From: Cryptosporangium aurantiacum
GTDB taxonomy: Bacteria; Actinomycetota; Actinomycetes; Mycobacteriales; Cryptosporangiaceae
Assembly (NCBI RefSeq): GCF_900143005.1
Contig: NZ_FRCS01000001.1
Coordinates: 930,001-994,000 of the forward strand
Direction: 5' to 3'
DNA: 64,000 nucleotides
Part shown: in pieces, positions 25,145 to 39,184 of the stretch
How the letters are laid out: every line of letters begins with the position of its first letter
How positions within the stretch are numbered: the first letter of the stretch is position 1
Made by a program: the position numbers and the translations under genes
Notes under the pieces: generated by a model
Seen by the model: only the letters and a program-made list of their open reading frames with translations
The model's database searches: none
Told to the model about the DNA's origin: nothing

Positions 25145-27448
25145 GTGGCCGATCGCGCCGCCGTCTCGGCGGTTGCCCGGGTCGTTCTGCTGGGCTGCGG
25201 CCTGCTCGCACTGGCCCTCGGGGTGCACGTCTGCTGGGTCTGGTCGGGCCACGGCGCGACGTCCCCGCTGCGGCTCTGGTCACCCTGGGCGTTGATCGAG
25301 ATCTCGATTCTCGTCGGCACCGCCATGGTCGTGCTGCGCTGCGTCCTGGTGCCTGCCCAGCGGGTGGCGTGGGTGCTGGTCGCCGTCGCCTCCGCCGCCT
25401 ACGGCGTCGGCTACGTGGTCTGGGACCGCCTGATCGCCGCGGGCAACCCGCTCCCGAGTTTCTCGCTCGCCGACGCGTTCTGGCTGCCCGGACTGCCGCT
25501 GGTGGCGGTCGCGGTGTGGCTGCTCTCCCGGCCGCTGGTCGGCGGCGTCGGCGTCGTCGGGATCTGGGACGCGGTCGTCGCCGGGACGCTGGGCGCGGCG
25601 GTGATGGCGCTGATGCTCGGCCGCGAGGTGCTCACCTGGGCCGACGGGAGCCCGCTCGACGCGGTGGTCACGCTCGGCTATCCGGCGCTGACGATCGTGG
25701 TGGTCGGGATGCTCGGTTCGGTGCTCGCGCTCGCCCACTGGCGCCTCGATCCGGCCTGGCTCCTGCTCAGCACCAGCGTGCTCCTGATGGCGATCGCCAA
25801 CGCGCTGGTCAGCCGTCTGCTCGCGACCGGCTCGGAGGGCGTCGAGCTGGTGGACCAGGTGTACGGCTTCGCCGCTGTGGCGCTGGCCGCCGCGGCGTGG
25901 CAGCGGCCCCGGCGGATGTCCGCCCGCTCGCTCGACCGGTGGACGATCCTCGCGCCGCTGCTCTGTGCCGGGGTCGCGGTGCTGATCCTGGTGGTCGTGA
26001 CGGCGACCGCGCAGCCGGCGGTGGCCGCCGTGTTCGCCGCGATCTCGGTGCTCGCCGCGCTGGCTCGCATCGGGTTCGGCGTCCGGCAGTTGCTGGACGC
26101 GGGCGAGCAGCACCGCCTGGCGATCACCGACGAACTGACCGGGCTCTACAACCGACGCGGGTTCCTGCGCGGCGTCGAGGAGGCACTGGCGTCGGACAAC
26201 CGCCGGACCCGGGCGCTCCTGCTGCTCGACCTCGATCGCTTCAAGGAGGTCAACGACGGGCTCGGGCACCAGATCGGAGACCAGCTGCTCGCCGTGCTCG
26301 CACCGCGGCTCGCCGGGGCGCTGAACTCGGACGATCTGCTCGCGCGCCTGGGCGGCGACGAGTTCGCGGTGCTCACCAGCGCGCCGACGGCCGTCGACGC
26401 GGACCGGGCCGTGCAAGGGCTGGCCGAGCGATTGCTGGCCGCCGTGCGGATGCCGCTCCCGATCGGCGGGATCGCGGTGCCGATGGACGTCAGCATCGGG
26501 GTCGCGGTGGAGGGGGATGCGCCGCCCACCGGCACCGTCGGCGAGCGGACCCTCGAGCTGCTCCGGTGCGCGGACACCGCGATGTACCGGGCGAAGGGTG
26601 AGCGGCTCGGGTGGGTCCGGTACGACTCGATCGGGCCGGACCTGCAGCGCGACTCGCTGCAGCGAGCCGCCGAACTGCGAAGCCTGCTGATCGGGGCTGG
26701 CACGGGGGCGTACGGGCAGCTGGAGATGCACTACCAGGCGCTGGTGGCGACCGCGGCGACCGCGCCGGCCCGGGTGGAGGCGCTCGTGCGGTGGCGCCAT
26801 CCGGTGCACGGGATGATCGCGCCGGACCACTTCCTCGGGCTCGCCGAGCGGACCGGGTTGACGCCGTACCTCACCCGGCGGGTGCTGGGCATGGCGCTGG
26901 ACCAGGTCGCGCGGTGGCGGCAGGGCGGCGCGGACGTCGAGGTCTCGGTCAACCTCTCGGCCTCCGACCTGTGTCACCCGGCGATGGTCGACGAGGTCCT
27001 GGAGGGCCTCGCCGTGCGTGGTCTGCCGTCGTCCGCGCTGACCGTCGAGATCACCGAGCAGGTCGCGATCGGTGACCTGGACACCGGCCGCGACTTCCTG
27101 GCGCTGCTGCGGAGCGCCGGGGTCGGCGTCGCGATCGACGACTTCGGCACCGGGTACTCGGCCCTCTCGTACCTGCAGCGGCTGCCGGCGACCGAGCTGA
27201 AGCTCGACCGGTCGCTGACCGCGAAGCTGGTCGACGACCCGGCCGCCGCCGCGATCGTCCGGGCGTGCATCGACCTGGCGCACACGCTCGGGCTGGAGGT
27301 CGTCGCCGAGGGCGTCGAGACCCCGGAGCAGGCCCGGCAGCTGGTGTCGGCCGGGGCCGACCGGCTGCAGGGGTGGCTCTTCGGCAAGCCGCAGCCCGGC
27401 GGTGCGGAGCCGCCGGTCGTGCTTCCGCTGGCAGCCGCGCAGCTCTGA
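25145..27448 (+). CDS. Membrane-bound GGDEF-EAL protein (diguanylate cyclase/phosphodiesterase)
   Basis: The 767-residue protein begins with about nine to ten membrane segments (1-310), probably a sensor region. A GGDEF domain follows with an intact GGDEF (about 403-407) and NDGLGHQIGDQLL, then an EAL domain. The EAL domain has EALVRW (about 544), NLSASDL, VEITEQ, DDFGTGYS (about 664) and AEGVETPEQ. Both catalytic signatures are complete, so it could make and degrade cyclic di-GMP. Which activity dominates cannot be read. The start is GTG. It stands alone between two intergenic regions. Confidence 0.93.
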   Translation: MADRAAVSAVARVVLLGCGLLALALGVHVCWVWSGHGATSPLRLWSPWALIEISILVGTAMVVLRCVLVPAQRVAWVLVAVASAAYGVGYVVWDRLIAAGNPLPSFSLADAFWLPGLPLVAVAVWLLSRPLVGGVGVVGIWDAVVAGTLGAAVMALMLGREVLTWADGSPLDAVVTLGYPALTIVVVGMLGSVLALAHWRLDPAWLLLSTSVLLMAIANALVSRLLATGSEGVELVDQVYGFAAVALAAAAWQRPRRMSARSLDRWTILAPLLCAGVAVLILVVVTATAQPAVAAVFAAISVLAALARIGFGVRQLLDAGEQHRLAITDELTGLYNRRGFLRGVEEALASDNRRTRALLLLDLDRFKEVNDGLGHQIGDQLLAVLAPRLAGALNSDDLLARLGGDEFAVLTSAPTAVDADRAVQGLAERLLAAVRMPLPIGGIAVPMDVSIGVAVEGDAPPTGTVGERTLELLRCADTAMYRAKGERLGWVRYDSIGPDLQRDSLQRAAELRSLLIGAGTGAYGQLEMHYQALVATAATAPARVEALVRWRHPVHGMIAPDHFLGLAERTGLTPYLTRRVLGMALDQVARWRQGGADVEVSVNLSASDLCHPAMVDEVLEGLAVRGLPSSALTVEITEQVAIGDLDTGRDFLALLRSAGVGVAIDDFGTGYSALSYLQRLPATELKLDRSLTAKLVDDPAAAAIVRACIDLAHTLGLEVVAEGVETPEQARQLVSAGADRLQGWLFGKPQPGGAEPPVVLPLAAAQL

Positions 27449-29218: not shown

Positions 29219-29322
29219 CCGCGCCATCGGCGGTTTCGCCGGTTCCGCACAACTCGCGGGTGTTCGGCGTCGGGGTCGGCCAGACTGGGTCGGAGCGACC
29301 CCGACGCCGAGGAGCGCCCTCC

Positions 29323-31533
29323 ATGAGCACTCGAACCGCCTACCGGACCTGCCCGCTCTGCGAAGCCGTCTGCGGCCTCGAGATCACGCTCTCCGGCCGG
29401 GACGTCGTCCGGGTCCGTGGTGACCGGGACGACGTCTTCAGCCGTGGTTTCATCTGCCCGAAGGGCGCGACGCTCGGCGACCTCGACCAGGACCCCGATC
29501 GGCTGACCGGGCCGCTCGTCCGCCGCGACGGCGTCCTGACCCCGGCCACCTGGGACGAGGCGTTCGCCGCCGTGGAGGCCGGGCTGGGCCGGGTCGCCGC
29601 GGAGCACGGCCGGGAGTCGGTCGCGCTGTACTTCGGCAACCCGAACGCGCACACGCTCGGTGGCGGGCTCTACCTAGGTGCGCTGCGCAAGGCGATCGGC
29701 ACCCGCAACGTCTACAGCGCGGCCAGCGTCGACCAGCTCCCCAAGCACGTCTCGGCCGGGCTGATGTTCGGCGACCCGACCGCGATCCCGGTGCCCGACC
29801 TGGACCGCACCGACTACCTGCTGATGCTCGGCGCCAACCCGGTCGAGTCCAACGGCAGCCTGTGCACAGCCCCCGACTTCCCCGGCCGCCTCAAGGCGCT
29901 GCGGGCGCGCGGCGGGCGACTCGTCGTCGTCGACCCGCGCCGCACCCGGACCGCCGCGCTCGCCGACCGGCACCTGTTCATCCGCCCCGGCACCGACCCG
30001 TACCTGCTGCTCGGCATCGTGCACACGCTGTTCGCCGAGAACCTGGTGGCCGCGCTGGACGACCGCTTCGCGGGTGTCGAGGAACTGCGCGTGCTGGCCA
30101 AGGAGTTCACGCCGTCCGCGATGGCCGACGTGTGCGGCGTCCCGGCCGAGGAGATCGAGACGCTGGCCCGTGAGCTCGCGGCGGCCGAGACCGCCGTGGT
30201 GTACGGCCGGATCGGCACGTCGACCGCCGAGTTCGGGACGCTGACCAGCTGGCTCGTCGACGTCGTCACCACGCTGACCGGCAACCTCGACCGGCCGGGC
30301 GGCGGCATGTTCGGCGCACCACCGCACGGCCGCACGCGCTGGCGCAAGCCGTTCCGGACCGGCCGCTGGAGCAGCCGGGTCCGGGGCCTGCCGGAGGTCA
30401 TCGGCGAGCTCCCGGTCGCGACCCTCGCCGACGAGATCCGGACGCCCGGCGACGGCCAGGTCCGCGCGCTGGTCACGGTGGCGGGCAACCCGGTGCTGTC
30501 CACCCCGGACGGACCCGGCCTGGACGCGGCGCTGGAGACGCTCGACTTCATGGTCAGCGTCGACCCGTACTTGAACGCGACCACCCGGCGCGCGGACGTG
30601 ATCCTCCCGCCGCCCCGGATCCTGGAAGCCGGCCACTACGACGTCGCGCTGCTCGGGTTCGCGGTCCGGCGGGTGGCGCGCTACTCCCCGCCGGTGCTCG
30701 CCCCTCTCGACGGCAGGCCGAACGAGGCGCAGATCCTCGCGAAGCTCGCGCTGATCGCCGCCGGGCAGGGCGTGGACGCCGATCCGGCGCTGCTCGACGA
30801 GGGCTTGATCGGCGCGGCGCTGGCGCACGCCGTGGCCGACCCGACGTCCCCGGTGCACGGACGCGACGCCGGTGAGCTCGCGGCGGAGCTGACCGGTGCG
30901 GACGGCACCGAACGACGGCTGGACCTGATGCTGCGGCTCGGCAGCTACGGTGACGCGTTCGGCGCCCGTCCCGGCGGGCTCTCGCTGCGACGGCTGCTGG
31001 ACGCTCCGCACGGCCTCGACCTCGGTCCGCTGGAGCCCGCGCTCGACGCGCTGGTGGCCACCGCGTCCGGGAAGGTCGAGCTGGCACCCGCGCCGATCGT
31101 CGCCGACCTGGCCCGGCTCCGCTCCGGCGCAGGCGCCCGGCGCGACGGGTTCGTGCTGGTCGGGCGGCGGAACCTGCGGACGAACAACAGCTGGTCACAC
31201 AACGTCCGCGCGCTGGCGGGCGGGTCGAACCGGTGCACGCTGCAGATGAACACCGACGACGCCGCCCGGCTCGGGCTCGCGGCCGGGCAGGAGGTGTGGG
31301 TCCGCTCGCGGGTCGGCGCGGTGGCGACCGTGCTGGAGCCGAGCGAGACGATCATGCCCGGCGTCGTCAGCCTGCCGCACGGCTTCGGGCACGGCCTGCC
31401 CGGCACCCGGCAGCGGGTCGCGGAGCAGACCTCAGGCGTCAACGCGAACACGCTCACCGACCCCGACCTGCTCGACGCGCTGAGCGGCACCGCCGTCCTC
31501 AACGGAATCCCGGTGGAGGTCGGCGCTAACTGA
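29323..31533 (+). CDS. Molybdopterin oxidoreductase (formate dehydrogenase/nitrate reductase-like)
   Basis: The 736-residue protein binds a 4Fe-4S cluster through C10, C13, C17 and C45 (CPLCEAVC ... FICPKG) and then shows the bis-MGD fold. Landmarks are NPNAHTLGGGLYLGALRKAI, MLGANPVESNGS, VVDPRRT, GNLDRPGGGMF, NTDDAARLGL and NANTLTDPDLLD. The place where formate dehydrogenases have Cys or selenocysteine reads SVDQLPKHVSAGLMFG, with no Cys, so the Mo ligand differs. The ATG at 29323 follows GAGGAG; a longer in-frame start lacks a ribosome site. No export signal or partner subunit gene is present, so it is probably cytoplasmic. Its 3' end overlaps the convergent kinase gene by eight bases. Confidence 0.88.
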   Translation: MSTRTAYRTCPLCEAVCGLEITLSGRDVVRVRGDRDDVFSRGFICPKGATLGDLDQDPDRLTGPLVRRDGVLTPATWDEAFAAVEAGLGRVAAEHGRESVALYFGNPNAHTLGGGLYLGALRKAIGTRNVYSAASVDQLPKHVSAGLMFGDPTAIPVPDLDRTDYLLMLGANPVESNGSLCTAPDFPGRLKALRARGGRLVVVDPRRTRTAALADRHLFIRPGTDPYLLLGIVHTLFAENLVAALDDRFAGVEELRVLAKEFTPSAMADVCGVPAEEIETLARELAAAETAVVYGRIGTSTAEFGTLTSWLVDVVTTLTGNLDRPGGGMFGAPPHGRTRWRKPFRTGRWSSRVRGLPEVIGELPVATLADEIRTPGDGQVRALVTVAGNPVLSTPDGPGLDAALETLDFMVSVDPYLNATTRRADVILPPPRILEAGHYDVALLGFAVRRVARYSPPVLAPLDGRPNEAQILAKLALIAAGQGVDADPALLDEGLIGAALAHAVADPTSPVHGRDAGELAAELTGADGTERRLDLMLRLGSYGDAFGARPGGLSLRRLLDAPHGLDLGPLEPALDALVATASGKVELAPAPIVADLARLRSGAGARRDGFVLVGRRNLRTNNSWSHNVRALAGGSNRCTLQMNTDDAARLGLAAGQEVWVRSRVGAVATVLEPSETIMPGVVSLPHGFGHGLPGTRQRVAEQTSGVNANTLTDPDLLDALSGTAVLNGIPVEVGAN

Positions 31534-34500
31534 CGTGCACGCGGTTCCGGCCGGCGTGCTTCGCCAGGTACAGGCAGCGGTCCGCGCGCCCCAGTAGCGT
31601 GCTGACCAGCGTGTCCGCGTCCGGATCCGCGTCCAGGTCGGCGTCGCGCAGGTAGGTGACGCCGAGGCTGATCGTCACCCGCAGCGGCCCGGCCGACGTC
31701 GGCACCGGGTCCTCGGCCACCGCGGCCCGCAGCTGCTCCGCGACCCGCGCCGCCTCCACCGGCCCGGCGCGGAGCAGCAGCGCGAACTCCTCACCGCCGT
31801 ACCGGCCGAGCAGCCCGAGCCCGCGGCCGTTCTGCCGGAGCCGCCCGGCGACCACCTGGATCACCTCGTCGCCGACCTGGTGGCCGTGCTCGTCGTTGAC
31901 CTGCTTGAAGTGGTCGATGTCGATCATCATCGCGGCGATCGGCCAGCTCGCCGCCCGGTCCCGCCTGCTGACCGCGACGTCCTGGGTGGCCAGCTCGAAG
32001 AAGTGGCGGCGGTTGGCGACGCCGGTCAGCCCGTCGATCGTCGCGAGCCGCCGGACCTCGGCGAACAGCCGGGCGTTCTCGTAGGCGACCATGCCCTGCC
32101 CGACCAGCGCACCGGCGATCTCGGCCACGCCGTCGTCGTAGTCGTCCGGTGAGCCGGTCGCGAACAGCAGGACGCCGAGCCGCTCGTCGCGCGCCACCAG
32201 CGGCAGCGCCAGCCAGCACCGGGCGTCCGGCAGCGCGTCGGTGACCAGGCGCGGCGCGTCGGACCGGCTCACCGCCGGTTCGGCCGTCTCGAGCAGGTGC
32301 AGCAGCCGGGCGTCGGCCTCCATCGCGACCGGGTGCGATCCGGTCGGGATGTTCAGGCCGTCGCCGGGGTCGTCCAGCCCGTCCGCCGCCGCGACCGCGG
32401 CGAAGATGCCGGCCAGGTCGTCGGTGCGGTGGTGCCGTCCGGTACGCGACGCGGCCCGTACCCAGACCAGCGGCGGCTCCGGCCCGGCCTGGATCAGCCA
32501 GCCGCTGTCGCCCCCGACGACACCGAACACGACCGTGAGCAGCCGCCGCAGCACCTGCTCGGGCGTCGGTTCGAGGATTCCGGTGATCGCGGCCAGCGCG
32601 TCCCGCAGCGTCTCGGCGAGGTCGCGCTGGCGGTTCGCGGCACCGACCGCCACCTCTAGCTGCGCGGCTCGCGCGGTCTCCAGCGCCACCGCGACGTGGC
32701 TGGTGATCGCGGTGAGCACGCCGACGTCGTCCGCGGTGAAGATGCCCTTCGCGACCCGGCTGTCCAGGTAGACGACGCCGAGCAGCCGGCCGTCGAGCAG
32801 GATCGGCGCCGCCATGATGCTGCGCAGCCCGTGCAGGACGACGCTCTCCGCGCCGAGCGCTGCACCCTCCTCGGTGCCGGTGACGACCATCGCGGTGCGG
32901 CTCTGCCAGACCCGCTCGACCAGCGTCGCGCTGTAGCCGGTGAGCGTGCCGAGGTCGGTGCGCGCGGCGTCGCGTCCCCCGTGCGGGCGCAGCCGGCCGG
33001 TGTCGTCGACCAGGAACAGGTAGGCGCGTTCCGCGCCGAGGATCCGGATCGTCTCGTCCAGCGCGACCGCGGCCACCCGGGCCGGATCGAGCACGCGGGA
33101 CGCGGCGAGCCCGACCTGCTGGATCGCGTCCAGCCGCTGCCGGTACAGGCTGACCGCGACACCGTCGGAGGACCGGGCCTGGTGCAGCGTGACCCGGGAC
33201 GCGCTGTCCAGGCCGAACTCCGACGCGAGCTGGCGGGCCCGGTGCGGCCAGCGCTGCTCGACGGCGAGCGCCAGCGCGTACCGTGCCTGCCGGTCGCGTT
33301 CGCCGTCCGCGCCCAGACTCTGCAGGGCCCGAGCCCTGATCCGGGCCGTCTCGAACGCCACCAGCGGCGCGTCCACGGCGCGCAGCACCGGCTCGGCGGT
33401 GTTCAGCGCCCGCAGCGCACGGTCGGTGCGCCCCTCGCACAGCAGCAGCCCGGCGCGCGTCACCCGATGGTGTGCCCGCAGCATCGGGGTGTTGGCGACG
33501 AGGCCGAGCGCCCGCACCGCCGCGCGGGCCTGCGCCAGCCGCCGTGCCCGGTCGTCCTTGCTCGCGACGCGGACCTGCTCGAGCCGCCCGTACGCCTGGT
33601 AGACGTAGAGCCCCCGGTGGATCGGGATCAGCGCCCACCAGGGCACCGCGGCGTCCTCCAGGTCCGCGACGGCCTCGTCGAACGCCGGGCCGCAGTCGCC
33701 CTGCTCCACCTCGGACAGCATCGCCACGTAGCTCAGGTCGACGCGTTCCCAGCGCGCCCGTCCGCCGTCGGCTCGTGCCCTGGCCAGCTGCGCGGCGGCC
33801 TCCGCGGGCCGCCCCTGCAGCGCGAGCAGCCCGACGTTGCACGCGTGCACGGTCGAGTTCAGCGCGCCGTCGCTGGCCTCGACCAGCGCCTGGCGACGGG
33901 TGAACACCTCCTCGGCGCCCCCGACGTCGCCGCGCAGCAGCGTGTCCCAGCAGAGCACCGACAGCAGGTCGATCCGGCGGCCGGCGTCCAGCCACCGGGC
34001 GCGGTTGGCGAGCACCGCACGGACCCGCTCGCCCTGGTCGAAGCCGAAGAACTGCTCGTCCAGCGCCTCCAGCCAGTCGACGAACGCGGTCAGCTGCGGG
34101 TCGCCGACGTCCTCGGCCGTGCGGTGCGCCCGCCGGGTCAGCCACCGCCCGTACCGGCGCAGGCCGATGATGTAGACGAGGTGCGCCGCCGCCATCGCCA
34201 TCCGCGCGCTCTCCGGGCCGCGGCCGATCCGGGCGGTCAGGAAGACCCGCCGCAGTGTGAACGCCAGCGAGACGGTCGGCCGTAACTGCCGGGCGTACGC
34301 CAGCGCGCCGGCGTCGTAGAGCTCGGTGAGCAGGCAGTACAGGTCGCGCTGCGGTTCCCGGACGGTGCCGTAACCGATCCGGGTCAGCATGATCGCCAGC
34401 CCGGCCAGCACCTGCCAGAGCGTCGAGAAGACGAGCACGAACGGGTTGTCCGGCAGCGGCCTGCCGAGCTCCAGCAGCGCTTCGTCGACGGCCTGCGACT

Positions 34501-37177
34501 GCCGGTCGGTCGCCCACGTGCTGTCGTGGACCTGCGCGGTCAGCGCGAGCAGCCGGGCGCGCTCGAGCGGTTCGGCGGTGCGCGCCCGCGCGGCCTCGAG
34601 CGTGGCCAGCGCGTCGCGGAACCGGCCGGTGCGGTGCTGTGCGCGGCCCAGCGCCTGCAGGAACTGGGCGTCCGGAACGTGGCCCGACCGGGTCGCCGCC
34701 GCGGCCGCCTGCTCCAGGAAGCCGACCGCCTCGGCCGGTGCCTGCTCGGCGAGCGCGAGCCGTCCGGCGGCCGTGCAGGCCACGAACAGCGCGGGGTTCG
34801 GCCTGCCGTCGTCGGCCAGCTGCCGATGCCGGGCCAGCGCGTACACCGTGGCGGGCACGCTCTGGTCCTGCGCGGTGAGGACGTCGGCGATCCGGGCGTG
34901 CACGCTGCGCAGCGTCGCGGGGTCGAACTGGCCGAGCAGCGCTTCGCGGATCCGGTCGTGCAAGAACTGGAAGTTGTCGCCGTCCCGGCGCTCCAGCAGG
35001 TGGCGCCAGGCGGCGGCGCTGGCGACCTCGATCGCGCGGCGCCGGGCGATGCGGCCGACCTCGGCGACCATGCCGGGGTCGAAGTGCGGGCCGAGCGCGG
35101 CGGCGACCCCGAGCAACTGCCTGCTCTCGTCGTCCAGCCCGCGCAGCCGTTCGAGCACCAGCGCCACCGCGTCGACCGGCAGTTCGACGTCGTGCAGCAG
35201 GTCGGAGTCGATCTGCCAGGTGCCCCAGGACGGCCGGGCCAGGCCGGCGTCGACGATCGCGGTGAGGAACTGCAGCAGCGTGAACGGGTTGCCGTCGCTG
35301 CGGGCGGCCAGCGCGGCCGCGGCGGCAGCGCTGATCCGGATGCCGCCGGTGACGCCGCGGACCAGCTCCGCGACGGCGTCCGCGGGCAGGGGTTCGAGCC
35401 GGATCGTGAGGTCGAGCGCCGGGCCGAGCGCCGCCCGCACCGCGTCGAGTTCCGACTCGTGCCCCGGGCCGTCGCGCGCGGTGGCGAGCACCAGGACCGG
35501 GGCGTCCGGAAGTTCGTCGGCCAGCTGGCGGAGCACCCGACCGGTGGCGTCGTCCATCCAGTGCAAGTCGTCCAGGTGCAGCACCAGGCCGCCCGCGGAG
35601 CGGGCCAGCCCGGCGAGGAATCCGGCGACCGCACCCGGTAGCGGCTGGTCGCGGTCGTCGGCGACCAGCGGCGCTGCTTCCAGCAGCGCGCCCAGGCCGG
35701 GGGACAGGCCGTGTAACAGCGACGCCGCCGGACCGGCCGCGGCGGTCAGGTCGACGGCGGCGGCGACCCGGCGGGCCGGCGGCAGCTCCAGGACCTCGGC
35801 GACGTACCGGTCGAACGCTTCGCGCAGCGGCGCCAGCGGCACCGAGGAGTCCGCGTCGCACTTGCCGTAGAGGACCAGCCCTCGGTTGGCGGTGACCGCG
35901 ACCGTGAGTTCCTCGGTCAGCCGGCTCTTGCCGCTTCCCGGCGGCCCGGTGACCAGCGCGGCGCCCCCGGCGGCGGTGCCGTCGGCGGCGGCGTCCCGGA
36001 TCTTTTGCCAGCGTGCCGCCAGCGCGCCGAGCTCGGCGTCACGGCCGACCAGCGGGGCCTCGGTCTTCCCGGCGGTCGGCCGGTCGGCGGTGCCGAGCCG
36101 GAACGCCCCCTCGCCGGACGCCAGCCTGCGCAGGTCCGCGACCAGGCCGTCGCCGCTCTGGTAGCGGTCGTCCGGGTCCTTGGCCAGCAGCTTCGCGATC
36201 ACGCCCCCGAGCGCGGGCGGCAGGTCGCGGCGAGCCATCAGCGGATCCGGCGCAGGCACCGTCGCGTGCATCCGCAGCAGCGAGCCGACGTCGTCGGAGT
36301 CGAACGGCGGCGCGCCGGTCGCGCACTCGAACAGCACGGCGCCGAGCGCGTAGAGGTCGGCGCGGCCGTCGACCGGGCGGTTGAGCATGCCGGACTGCTC
36401 CGGCGCGCAGTAGAGCATCGTCCCGGCCACCGTGCCGTCGGGCGGTGCGCCCAGCCGGGAGGCCATCCCGAAGTCGATCACCCGCGCCTGCGGCGCGACG
36501 TGCCCGACGCCGGTTTGGACGATGATGTTCTCCGGCTTGATGTCGCGGTGCATCAGTCCGGCCCGGTGGGCCGCGGCCAGCGCGTCCGCGACGTCGATGC
36601 CGATCGCGAGCAGCGTGTCGATGCCGAGCGCCCCGTCGGCGAGGACGTCGGCTAGCCGATCTCCGTCGACCAGGTCCATCACCAGGTACGGACGCCCGTC
36701 GGCGGTGCCGACCTCGTGCACGCGCGCCAGGCCGGGGTGCGCGACGCAGGCGAGCAGCGCGGCCTCCCGGCGGAACGCGCGCTCGGCGGCCTCGGCCGTC
36801 GCCGCGTCGTCGTCGGGCCCGGTGACGCGGTCCCGCGCCACTTTCATCGCGTACACGCCGTCGCCGCGGCGGACCCGGTACGCGACGGTCCGGCTGCCCC
36901 GGCCGAGCTCGCCGAGGATCTCGTAGCCGGCCGAACCCTGTGCGGCCTTCGCCGCGGTGGCGGCCCGGACACCGGCCCCGTGGGTGCCGGTGGTGGACCG
37001 GAGCGGCGCCGCGTCGACCGGGCCGATCGGGCTGACCGGACGCGGGCGCGGCTGGCCGTCCGGACGGCTGCCGGACGCGGGAAGCGGCACGGCGGGCTCG
37101 CCGGCCGTTCCGGCGACCGCGCGGAGGCGTTCCAGCCCCAGGAGGACGCCTGCGTCGTCGTGGCGGTCGAGCGACAC
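31526..37177 (-). CDS. Giant Ser/Thr kinase - ATPase - GAF-GAF - diguanylate cyclase
   Basis: About 1,883 residues. In order: a Pro-rich leader, a Hanks-type kinase (about 85-350; AMKV Lys, HRDIKPEN, DFGMAS, APEQ), and an AAA/STAND ATPase (Walker A GPPGSGKSR near 410, LHLDDLHWMDD). A ~700-residue helical TPR-like region comes next, then two GAF domains (about 1350-1510 and 1525-1690) and a GGDEF domain with intact GGEEF near 1795. Similar kinase-ATPase-GAF proteins usually end in a histidine kinase; here a cyclase takes that place. No membrane segment is seen. The GTG at 37177 is preferred (GGGAG six bases before); a GTG seven codons upstream is possible. It is divergent from the VWA-protein gene. 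Confidence 0.9.
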   Translation of the reverse strand: MSLDRHDDAGVLLGLERLRAVAGTAGEPAVPLPASGSRPDGQPRPRPVSPIGPVDAAPLRSTTGTHGAGVRAATAAKAAQGSAGYEILGELGRGSRTVAYRVRRGDGVYAMKVARDRVTGPDDDAATAEAAERAFRREAALLACVAHPGLARVHEVGTADGRPYLVMDLVDGDRLADVLADGALGIDTLLAIGIDVADALAAAHRAGLMHRDIKPENIIVQTGVGHVAPQARVIDFGMASRLGAPPDGTVAGTMLYCAPEQSGMLNRPVDGRADLYALGAVLFECATGAPPFDSDDVGSLLRMHATVPAPDPLMARRDLPPALGGVIAKLLAKDPDDRYQSGDGLVADLRRLASGEGAFRLGTADRPTAGKTEAPLVGRDAELGALAARWQKIRDAAADGTAAGGAALVTGPPGSGKSRLTEELTVAVTANRGLVLYGKCDADSSVPLAPLREAFDRYVAEVLELPPARRVAAAVDLTAAAGPAASLLHGLSPGLGALLEAAPLVADDRDQPLPGAVAGFLAGLARSAGGLVLHLDDLHWMDDATGRVLRQLADELPDAPVLVLATARDGPGHESELDAVRAALGPALDLTIRLEPLPADAVAELVRGVTGGIRISAAAAAALAARSDGNPFTLLQFLTAIVDAGLARPSWGTWQIDSDLLHDVELPVDAVALVLERLRGLDDESRQLLGVAAALGPHFDPGMVAEVGRIARRRAIEVASAAAWRHLLERRDGDNFQFLHDRIREALLGQFDPATLRSVHARIADVLTAQDQSVPATVYALARHRQLADDGRPNPALFVACTAAGRLALAEQAPAEAVGFLEQAAAAATRSGHVPDAQFLQALGRAQHRTGRFRDALATLEAARARTAEPLERARLLALTAQVHDSTWATDRQSQAVDEALLELGRPLPDNPFVLVFSTLWQVLAGLAIMLTRIGYGTVREPQRDLYCLLTELYDAGALAYARQLRPTVSLAFTLRRVFLTARIGRGPESARMAMAAAHLVYIIGLRRYGRWLTRRAHRTAEDVGDPQLTAFVDWLEALDEQFFGFDQGERVRAVLANRARWLDAGRRIDLLSVLCWDTLLRGDVGGAEEVFTRRQALVEASDGALNSTVHACNVGLLALQGRPAEAAAQLARARADGGRARWERVDLSYVAMLSEVEQGDCGPAFDEAVADLEDAAVPWWALIPIHRGLYVYQAYGRLEQVRVASKDDRARRLAQARAAVRALGLVANTPMLRAHHRVTRAGLLLCEGRTDRALRALNTAEPVLRAVDAPLVAFETARIRARALQSLGADGERDRQARYALALAVEQRWPHRARQLASEFGLDSASRVTLHQARSSDGVAVSLYRQRLDAIQQVGLAASRVLDPARVAAVALDETIRILGAERAYLFLVDDTGRLRPHGGRDAARTDLGTLTGYSATLVERVWQSRTAMVVTGTEEGAALGAESVVLHGLRSIMAAPILLDGRLLGVVYLDSRVAKGIFTADDVGVLTAITSHVAVALETARAAQLEVAVGAANRQRDLAETLRDALAAITGILEPTPEQVLRRLLTVVFGVVGGDSGWLIQAGPEPPLVWVRAASRTGRHHRTDDLAGIFAAVAAADGLDDPGDGLNIPTGSHPVAMEADARLLHLLETAEPAVSRSDAPRLVTDALPDARCWLALPLVARDERLGVLLFATGSPDDYDDGVAEIAGALVGQGMVAYENARLFAEVRRLATIDGLTGVANRRHFFELATQDVAVSRRDRAASWPIAAMMIDIDHFKQVNDEHGHQVGDEVIQVVAGRLRQNGRGLGLLGRYGGEEFALLLRAGPVEAARVAEQLRAAVAEDPVPTSAGPLRVTISLGVTYLRDADLDADPDADTLVSTLLGRADRCLYLAKHAGRNRVHVS

Positions 37178-37369
37178 CCCACGCTCCCGTTTGCTCACTG
37201 TTGGCGGTCGGAGCCTACCGACTCCTTCGCGATCCAGGAGTTACAGACGATGAACTTGCCCCTGTTTCTTGCGCTGGTCGACCGCTGAGTCAGGGCAGAA
37301 CGGCTGGGGTGGGCACCCACCGGACGCACGCTGGTCGGGGCCGAGCAGCATCAGGTACCTTCCGTGCTC

Positions 37370-39184
37370 ATGGCGCGTGGTCGGCACCGCACTGCGGTGG
37401 TACTCCGCCAGCAGGCATCCGCCTCGGCGGCTTCGCGTCCGCGCGCCCGCCGCTGGTGGTTTCGACCATGGACTGCTGCGGTCGTCGTGGTCGTCTTGGT
37501 CGGTGGCGCGCTCACTGCCGGTTACCTCCTCCGTTCCGACGAGTGCACCGGCGAGCCGGTCGTGCTCTCCGTCGTCACCTCGCCCGATCAGCAGGACGTC
37601 GTCCGGGAGCTGGCCTACGCCTGGGAGGCCGGGGAACACCGGATCGACGGGAAGTGCGGTGCGATCCTGGTCCGCGGCCAGGAGTCGTCCGCCGTCGGCC
37701 AGTCGCTGACGCCGACCCAGAACGGCGCCGCGCCCGCGAACCGGGTCGATGTCTGGATGCCGGATTCGTCCACCTGGATCACCAGCACCGCCGCACGGCC
37801 GGGTGTCGCCCCGCTGTTCGCCTACGACCGCCCCAGCATCGCGACCTCGCCGATCGTGCTGGCGCTGCCTCGCCCGATGGCCGATGCGCTGGGCTGGCCG
37901 AACACGCCGGTGTCGTGGACGCAGCTCGGGCTGCAGCGGATCAACGGCCGGACCTGGAGCGACTACGGCCACCCGGAGTGGGGCGCGTTGCGGATCGGCG
38001 TCGGCGACCCGCGGCAGTCCACGACGGCGCTCGGCACGCTGCTGTCGGTGGTCGACGCCAACGGCGACAACAAGGTGGGCGAGACCGAGCTGCACAACGC
38101 GTTGCTGCTGGCCAGGGCCGCGACCGTGGACCAGCCGACGTCGGCGGCGTTCCTCGCCCGGCTGCGCGGCGCCACGGACGAGGCCGCGCTGCTCGCCGAG
38201 GCCGGTCCGTTCCCGGCGACCGAGCAGCAGGTGGCGGCGTACGACAACGGTGACCCGGTGGTGCCGCTGACCGCCGTGCACCCCACCGAGGGGACGATCT
38301 TCGCCGACTACCCGTACGTGACGCTCGCCGCGCCCTGGGTCGATCCGATCCGGCAGAAGATCGCGGCCAGCTTCCTCGACCTGATCCAGAGCGACGAGGG
38401 GCGGGAGGCGTACGGGCGGGCCGGATTCCGCGACCCGGAGCGCACCACCCGGTACGCGCGGGGTCTCCAGCCGGTGCTGGGGATGGGCGGTCCGGTCTCG
38501 GACGGTGCCAGGGGCCTGCCCACCGACGACGGGATCACCCGGACCGTGGTGTTCTGGACCGCGCTGCAGCGCCGGGCGAACGTGCTGGCCACGATCGACA
38601 CGTCCGGCTCGATGACGGATCGGGCGCCGGACGGCTCCGGCACCCGCATGCAGGTCGTGCAGGAGGCGTGCATCCGGGCGATCACGTTGTTCAGCCCGGA
38701 GTCCGGCGTCGGACTGTGGAAGTTCGCGACGGAACTCGACGGCGACAAGGACTACCGGCAGCTGGTCCCGCTCGGGCCGATCGGCGGCGCGCTGTCGGAC
38801 GGCACGCCGCGCCGGGCGGCGCTGGAGACCGCGATCCGGCGCGATCTGACGCCGAAGGGCGCGACCGGCCTGTACGACACGATGTACGCCGCGTTCCGCA
38901 ACGTCCAGGCGCACTGGCAGCCCGGCCGGTTGAACCTGCTGGTGCTGATGACCGACGGCAAGAACGAGGACGACGGCCTGACCCGTGCGCAGCTGGTCCA
39001 GCGGCTTCGTCAGATCGCTCAGCCGGACAAGCCGGTGCAGGTGATCGCGATCGGCTTCGGGAGCGACGCCGACCTGGCCGAGCTCAACGCGATCACGCAG
39101 GCCGTCGGTGGCAAGGCGTACCGCGCGAACAGCGGCCGCGACATCGATCGGATCTTCCTGCAGACGCTAGTCGGCGGCGAGTAG
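37370..39184 (+). CDS. Membrane-anchored binding-protein/VWA-domain protein with EF-hand-like loop
   Basis: The 604-residue protein has a basic N-terminus, one membrane segment (about 33-53) and an extracellular solute-binding-protein-like region (about 65-360). A VWA domain (about 400-600) follows, with a complete MIDAS start DTSGSM and LMTDGKNEDD. Within the binding region DANGDNKVGETEL (about 229-241) fits a calcium EF-hand loop. VWA domains bind protein partners through a metal ion, so this may be a surface adhesion or complex-assembly protein. A GTG two codons upstream is an alternative start. It is divergent from the kinase-cyclase gene, with GGTGGGCACCCACC (37308-37321) as a possible operator. 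Confidence 0.85.
   Translation: MARGRHRTAVVLRQQASASAASRPRARRWWFRPWTAAVVVVVLVGGALTAGYLLRSDECTGEPVVLSVVTSPDQQDVVRELAYAWEAGEHRIDGKCGAILVRGQESSAVGQSLTPTQNGAAPANRVDVWMPDSSTWITSTAARPGVAPLFAYDRPSIATSPIVLALPRPMADALGWPNTPVSWTQLGLQRINGRTWSDYGHPEWGALRIGVGDPRQSTTALGTLLSVVDANGDNKVGETELHNALLLARAATVDQPTSAAFLARLRGATDEAALLAEAGPFPATEQQVAAYDNGDPVVPLTAVHPTEGTIFADYPYVTLAAPWVDPIRQKIAASFLDLIQSDEGREAYGRAGFRDPERTTRYARGLQPVLGMGGPVSDGARGLPTDDGITRTVVFWTALQRRANVLATIDTSGSMTDRAPDGSGTRMQVVQEACIRAITLFSPESGVGLWKFATELDGDKDYRQLVPLGPIGGALSDGTPRRAALETAIRRDLTPKGATGLYDTMYAAFRNVQAHWQPGRLNLLVLMTDGKNEDDGLTRAQLVQRLRQIAQPDKPVQVIAIGFGSDADLAELNAITQAVGGKAYRANSGRDIDRIFLQTLVGGE

Follow-up and report, generated by a model that had tools for sequence, protein, structure and literature searches.

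A protein of Cryptosporangium aurantiacum that joins a Hanks-type kinase, an AAA_16 ATPase and GAF domains to a diguanylate cyclase

The window analysed here, a stretch of 64,000 nucleotides from Cryptosporangium aurantiacum, carries on its reverse strand a gene for a fusion protein in which a Hanks-type Ser/Thr kinase is followed by an AAA_16 ATPase, a helical TPR-like solenoid, a GAF domain, a second GAF domain and a GGEEF cyclase (Table 1). The GTG at position 37177 is the likely start of this gene, since a GGGAG Shine-Dalgarno-like sequence precedes it and conservation among the genus orthologues begins at this codon (VSLDRHDDAG in the protein alignment). The G+C content of the gene is 76%, and 95% at third positions, as expected for coding sequence of a high-G+C actinomycete. 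Orthologues of the same layout, 81-88% identical, are present in all three of the other genus genomes examined; the fusion layout is thus not due to chance, and these intact copies rule out an assembly or frameshift artefact. At its stop codon the gene overlaps by 8 bp with the end of a convergent molybdopterin oxidoreductase gene (29260-31533, forward strand), and on its other side lies a divergent gene (37364-39184, forward strand) for a protein with an SBP_bac_11 solute-binding domain and a VWA domain, which is syntenic in the genus.

Table 1. Features of the fusion gene and of the neighbouring GGDEF-EAL gene, in window coordinates; aa, residues of the fusion protein.
Feature	Position	Strand	Evidence
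Whole fusion gene	31526..37177	-	ORF, 1883 codons + stop; GTG start 37177
Hanks Ser/Thr kinase, aa 85-340	36158..36925	-	Pfam PF00069, E 1.3e-33; motifs; PknB-like fold
AAA_16 P-loop ATPase, aa 375-564	35486..36055	-	Pfam PF13191, E 2.3e-24; Walker motifs
All-helical region ending in long TPR-like solenoid, aa about 565-1321	33215..35485	-	AlphaFold2; weak TPR matches
First GAF domain (Pfam GAF_2), aa 1364-1500	32678..33088	-	Pfam PF13185, E 2.2e-17
Second GAF-like domain, aa about 1539-1674	32156..32563	-	AlphaFold2 model; 4zmu alignment
Long helix from second GAF to cyclase, aa about 1682-1712	32042..32134	-	AlphaFold2, model residues 783-813
GGDEF diguanylate cyclase domain, aa 1712-1879	31541..32044	-	Pfam PF00990, E 5.2e-36; fold matches
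GGEEF active-site motif, aa 1794-1798	31784..31798	-	Homologue alignment
Degraded product-inhibition site RGLG (for RxxD), aa 1785-1788	31814..31825	-	Alignment
GGDEF-EAL protein with hydrophobic N-terminal segments	25145..27448	+	Pfam PF00990 + PF00563

The Pkinase, AAA_16, GAF_2 and GGDEF profiles of Pfam all score far above their curated cut-offs in the fusion protein. The kinase has all of its motifs (the GRGSRT loop, K112, E138, HRDIKPEN, DFG and APE), the ATPase has its Walker A (GPPGSGKS) and Walker B (LVLHLDD) sequences, and the cyclase retains MIDIDHFKQVND, GHQVGD, RYGGEEF and AKHAGRN together with the metal-binding Asp residues. All four catalytic signatures are intact and are kept in four orthologues as well as in more distant actinobacterial members; the GGEEF motif is invariant in the ten closest homologues and reads GGEEI in the distant member L059. 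The profile matches and intact motifs bear out the original prediction of a complete Hanks kinase, an ATPase and an intact GGEEF cyclase in one protein.

The product-inhibition site RxxD is common among diguanylate cyclases, but not universal. It reads RGLG in the fusion protein and its three genus orthologues and is altered in the paralogues too, and it is intact in the relatives L019, L020, L021, L099, L110, L111 and L112 and in the proteobacterial members. This loss of the site adds to the original prediction. In the alignment the activation-loop Thr of the kinase has no conserved counterpart in relatives, a point against the gated-cyclase reading proposed below. Of all domains the first GAF has the highest identity to distant actinobacterial relatives, at 58-67% and above both kinase and cyclase, and the second GAF ranks among the lowest in conservation.

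AlphaFold2 models built from 18 homologues (pLDDT 82 for the N-terminal part and 80 for the C-terminal part) resolve in turn into kinase, ATPase, helical region, a solenoid of about 20 helices, a pair of GAF-like folds, one long helix and, last, the cyclase. The kinase model lies nearest to Mycobacterium tuberculosis PknB (Z 29.8, rmsd 1.8 over 254 residues), and the cyclase model matches 3ign (Z 25.1, rmsd 1.3, 164 residues) and PleD (2wb4; Z 24.4, rmsd 1.5, 164 residues); the match lists of Foldseek and VIA-align were taken up by kinase and GGDEF matches, with the AAA and solenoid parts barely compared. The second GAF has no Pfam match in the fusion protein. Its model, which is partly of low confidence, has the same order of elements as the first GAF, and 4zmu, a cyclase with an N-terminal sensor domain, aligns over model residues 644-984, a range that spans it; the models thus support a second GAF at the position given in Table 1. 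Of the two predicted GAF domains, the first is thus borne out by Pfam and the second supported by the AlphaFold2 model. The long TPR-like region was also rightly foreseen, being an all-helical solenoid in the model, with weak TPR matches at E about 0.002 that are stronger in the homologues.

A P-loop ATPase with Walker A and B motifs, followed by a helical domain and a repeat array, is the hallmark of STAND (MalT-like) proteins, and the fusion protein has this succession. Its predicted ATPase and helical-repeat scaffold is, on motifs and models, a MalT/STAND-type arrangement; nSTAND profiles match only two to three of the 18 homologues. The top structural matches of the C-terminal GAF-helix-GGDEF part are two gated cyclases, Dcsbis (4zmu) and the phytochrome cyclase of Idiomarina (5llw), which share with the fusion protein one or more sensor domains, a long helix and a GGDEF domain, but are without the kinase, ATPase and TPR region. 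The likeness is meaningful for domain content only, because the multi-domain rmsd is large, and the relative placement of the domains differs.

The 9.58 Mb genome of C. aurantiacum itself holds one paralogue of the same layout at 43% identity (C8:354332-359683). Both the fusion gene and this paralogue are found in all four genus genomes examined, and the one further genome of the family that was examined has a single relative. Searches with a query shorter than the whole protein found a close relative in 4 of 60 genomes of the class sample and in 5 of 81 of the order sample, the latter all from the same family, and from these counts we conclude that close relatives are patchy in actinobacteria. 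A whole-protein query at E 1e-40 gave no match in the plasmid collection. Beyond the close relatives, a scan of one genome per species yielded 574 confirmed relatives, among the best 80 of which the same layout occurs in at least about 25 proteins; their hosts are Actinomycetota, Pseudomonadota, a Cyanobacteriota MAG and a 'Deltaproteobacteria' MAG, with Paractinoplanes, Virgisporangium, Kineosporia, Colwellia and Lysobacter among the named taxa. The true number of such proteins is higher than about 25. In all 18 same-layout proteins checked, Pfam finds the Pkinase, AAA_16, GAF and GGDEF domains. PF13191 was tried as a distribution marker and is uninformative, with 14 of 14 controls positive and 62 matches in the C. 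aurantiacum genome alone; the same genome has about 30 GGDEF places and dozens of Ser/Thr kinase places, and its signalling repertoire is large.

The rarity implied by the original prediction is not supported: the full domain order recurs across phyla, and a combination of kinase, TPR repeats and GGDEF was reported in 2005 (PMC1262709). That survey describes a Clostridium thermocellum protein of 1826 amino acids (gi 23020879) as 'Kinase + 6 TPR repeats + GGDEF', and reads from this a sharing of signalling components further downstream as well as a part in making cyclic diguanylate (PMC1262709). By description the two proteins share an N-terminal Ser/Thr kinase, helical repeats, a C-terminal GGDEF domain and a near-equal length, and at this level of domain description the fusion protein has the kinase, TPR-like repeats and GGDEF in one chain; the C. 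thermocellum protein, however, belongs to another phylum, and AAA and GAF domains are unmentioned for it in the survey. The architecture is thus neither new nor unique, having been known in the literature since 2005. As to whether it was already common and characterised, the first part stands, in that the layout is recurrent and described, and the second does not: the literature searched, which was thin on subscription journals, contained neither a biochemical study of any kinase-GGDEF fusion nor an experiment linking kinase activity to cyclase activity.

Other known systems share parts of this design. Cyanobacterial dual kinases of the HstK type, with a kinase-GAF-histidine kinase order (PMC1262709), are likewise giant proteins with an N-terminal Hanks kinase and GAF domains, but end in a histidine kinase where the fusion protein ends in a diguanylate cyclase. 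The same survey lists an M. tuberculosis kinase joined to a MalT-like protein (PMC1262709). In the PDB, the nearest kinase to that of the fusion protein, in sequence as well as in fold, is PknB. Neither PknB nor the MalT-like kinase of M. tuberculosis, which we take to be PknK, is known to carry GAF or GGDEF domains. The best NCBIfam match is the TOMM kinase/cyclase family TIGR03903, in which a kinase is also joined to an output of the nucleotide-cyclase type; membership is rejected at 198.5 bits against a curated cut-off of 705.75, and the best-matching stretch is the kinase region only. The cyclase of TIGR03903 is of the adenylate/guanylate type, not GGDEF.

A tree of 82 GGDEF domains supports the clade of the fusion protein, with 12 members, at 97/97. 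A second clade unites Virgisporangium aliadipatigenens and a Micromonosporaceae MAG with Lysobacter and Colwellia; it sits in a 99/92 group that also holds one Marinobacterium ORF, and L033 and L059 fall elsewhere. The kinase-domain tree, which is without L059 (a GGEEI locus missed by the motif filter), recovers the same two clades at 96/96 (14 members) and 100/99. Because both trees give the same clades, kinase and cyclase have been inherited together within each. The two clades may go back to one ancestral fusion or to separate ones: in the kinase tree, branches with good support call for two changes or more, some of which could be losses. Both clades recovered end in GGDEF and no relative retrieved ends in a histidine kinase; that a cyclase took the place of a histidine kinase in this lineage, as the original prediction supposed, is at most conjectural. 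In both trees the two Micromonosporaceae members of the second clade fall among proteobacteria, a placement that hints at transfer or ancient paralogy.

The second clade (L022-L028 and L030) keeps the kinase-AAA-GAF-GGDEF layout, but its kinase has lost the Gly-rich loop, has the Lys of HRDxKPxN replaced and mostly reads DFA, DFH or DFE for DFG, while its cyclase is intact. Of the two clades, the actinobacterial one with the fusion protein retains a canonical kinase, and both retain the cyclase. This contrast between a retained cyclase and a clade-limited canonical kinase is the most informative new point of the analysis: a layout in which the kinase decays and the cyclase does not suggests that the output under conservation is c-di-GMP synthesis, with the kinase in a modulating role.

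The same contrast bears on two other ways of reading the protein. One scaffold might serve two independent outputs, the kinase acting on other proteins and the cyclase making c-di-GMP in response to the same signal, with no control of one by the other. Both active sites are complete, and the genome, with its many further kinases and its roughly 30 GGDEF places, has separate networks; the second clade, however, retains the layout although its kinase has decayed, so that a kinase output of its own is no general requirement, and we regard this reading as possible but rather unlikely. The roles could also be reversed, with the GGDEF domain serving mainly as a GTP or c-di-GMP sensor that controls the kinase or ATPase and Ser/Thr phosphorylation as the real output. 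Some GGDEF domains elsewhere are GTP-binding regulators, and the kinase of the fusion protein is canonical, but the GGEEF motif and the residues that bind metal are intact and hardly vary, the kinase is the part that decays in the sister architecture, and the site lost is the very I-site that would bind c-di-GMP. A sensory GGDEF domain of this kind seems to us highly improbable.

We propose instead that the fusion protein is a diguanylate cyclase with several inputs, probably located in the cytosol, whose upstream domains gate c-di-GMP synthesis, a reading to which we give about an even chance of being correct. In this model the ATPase-solenoid and the GAF domains would bind a ligand or partner, and the strong conservation of the first GAF fits a conserved input. 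Assembly that depends on ATP, together with (auto)phosphorylation through the kinase, would then set the hold of the GAF pair and linking helix on two GGDEF domains, whose juxtaposition would switch c-di-GMP synthesis on or off; with the RxxD site lost, regulation would be expected from these domains and not from product feedback. On this view the output under conservation would be c-di-GMP, and the kinase would modulate its synthesis or act beside the cyclase, perhaps with additional substrates. We infer an interplay of kinase, ATPase and cyclase solely from their sharing one chain. The narrower proposal, that the Hanks kinase directly gates the cyclase of the same polypeptide through cis or trans autophosphorylation and STAND-like, ATP-driven assembly, is offered only tentatively, although a coupling of the kinase to c-di-GMP output within one chain, as in the original prediction, is plausible.

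Research mostly treats Ser/Thr kinase networks as one subject and c-di-GMP signalling as another, and the fusion protein carries the active sites of both. Gating by the kinase, if true, would mean that a single protein leads from Ser/Thr phosphorylation to c-di-GMP, and the decayed-kinase clade would then be a kinase-independent version of a kinase-gated cyclase. Natural versions with canonical and with decayed kinases, the cyclase being kept in both, offer a direct comparison for phosphorylation control of c-di-GMP synthesis. Because the architecture has been on record since 2005, the value lies in this test and not in discovery.

The second GGDEF-EAL protein that the original prediction had placed 4 kb away is indeed present, with intact GGDEF and EAL sites and at 4.1 kb from the fusion gene. 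This spacing, with intact motifs on both sides, raises the idea that the two proteins form one local circuit that makes and breaks c-di-GMP. The gene order is kept in two other members of the genus, the kinase-cyclase L112 (genome G059) also adjoins a GGDEF-EAL gene, and the chance expectation of a GGDEF place this close is about 0.03-0.04 (from about 30 places in 9.58 Mb), an estimate made after seeing the data and weakened by that. The whole block from the GGDEF-EAL gene to a glycosyl hydrolase is, however, syntenic in two congeners, as is the available part in a third, so that its order says little about functional linkage, and a GGDEF-EAL neighbour was not seen in the flanks of L019, L020 and L021. 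We judge such a circuit improbable.

Within the solenoid of the fusion protein lies a hydrophobic stretch of 19 residues (aa 913-931; 34385-34441, reverse strand) with a hydropathy of 2.15, by which a membrane contact is possible; it is present in the genus orthologues, partly present in L019 and L020, and absent from the paralogues.
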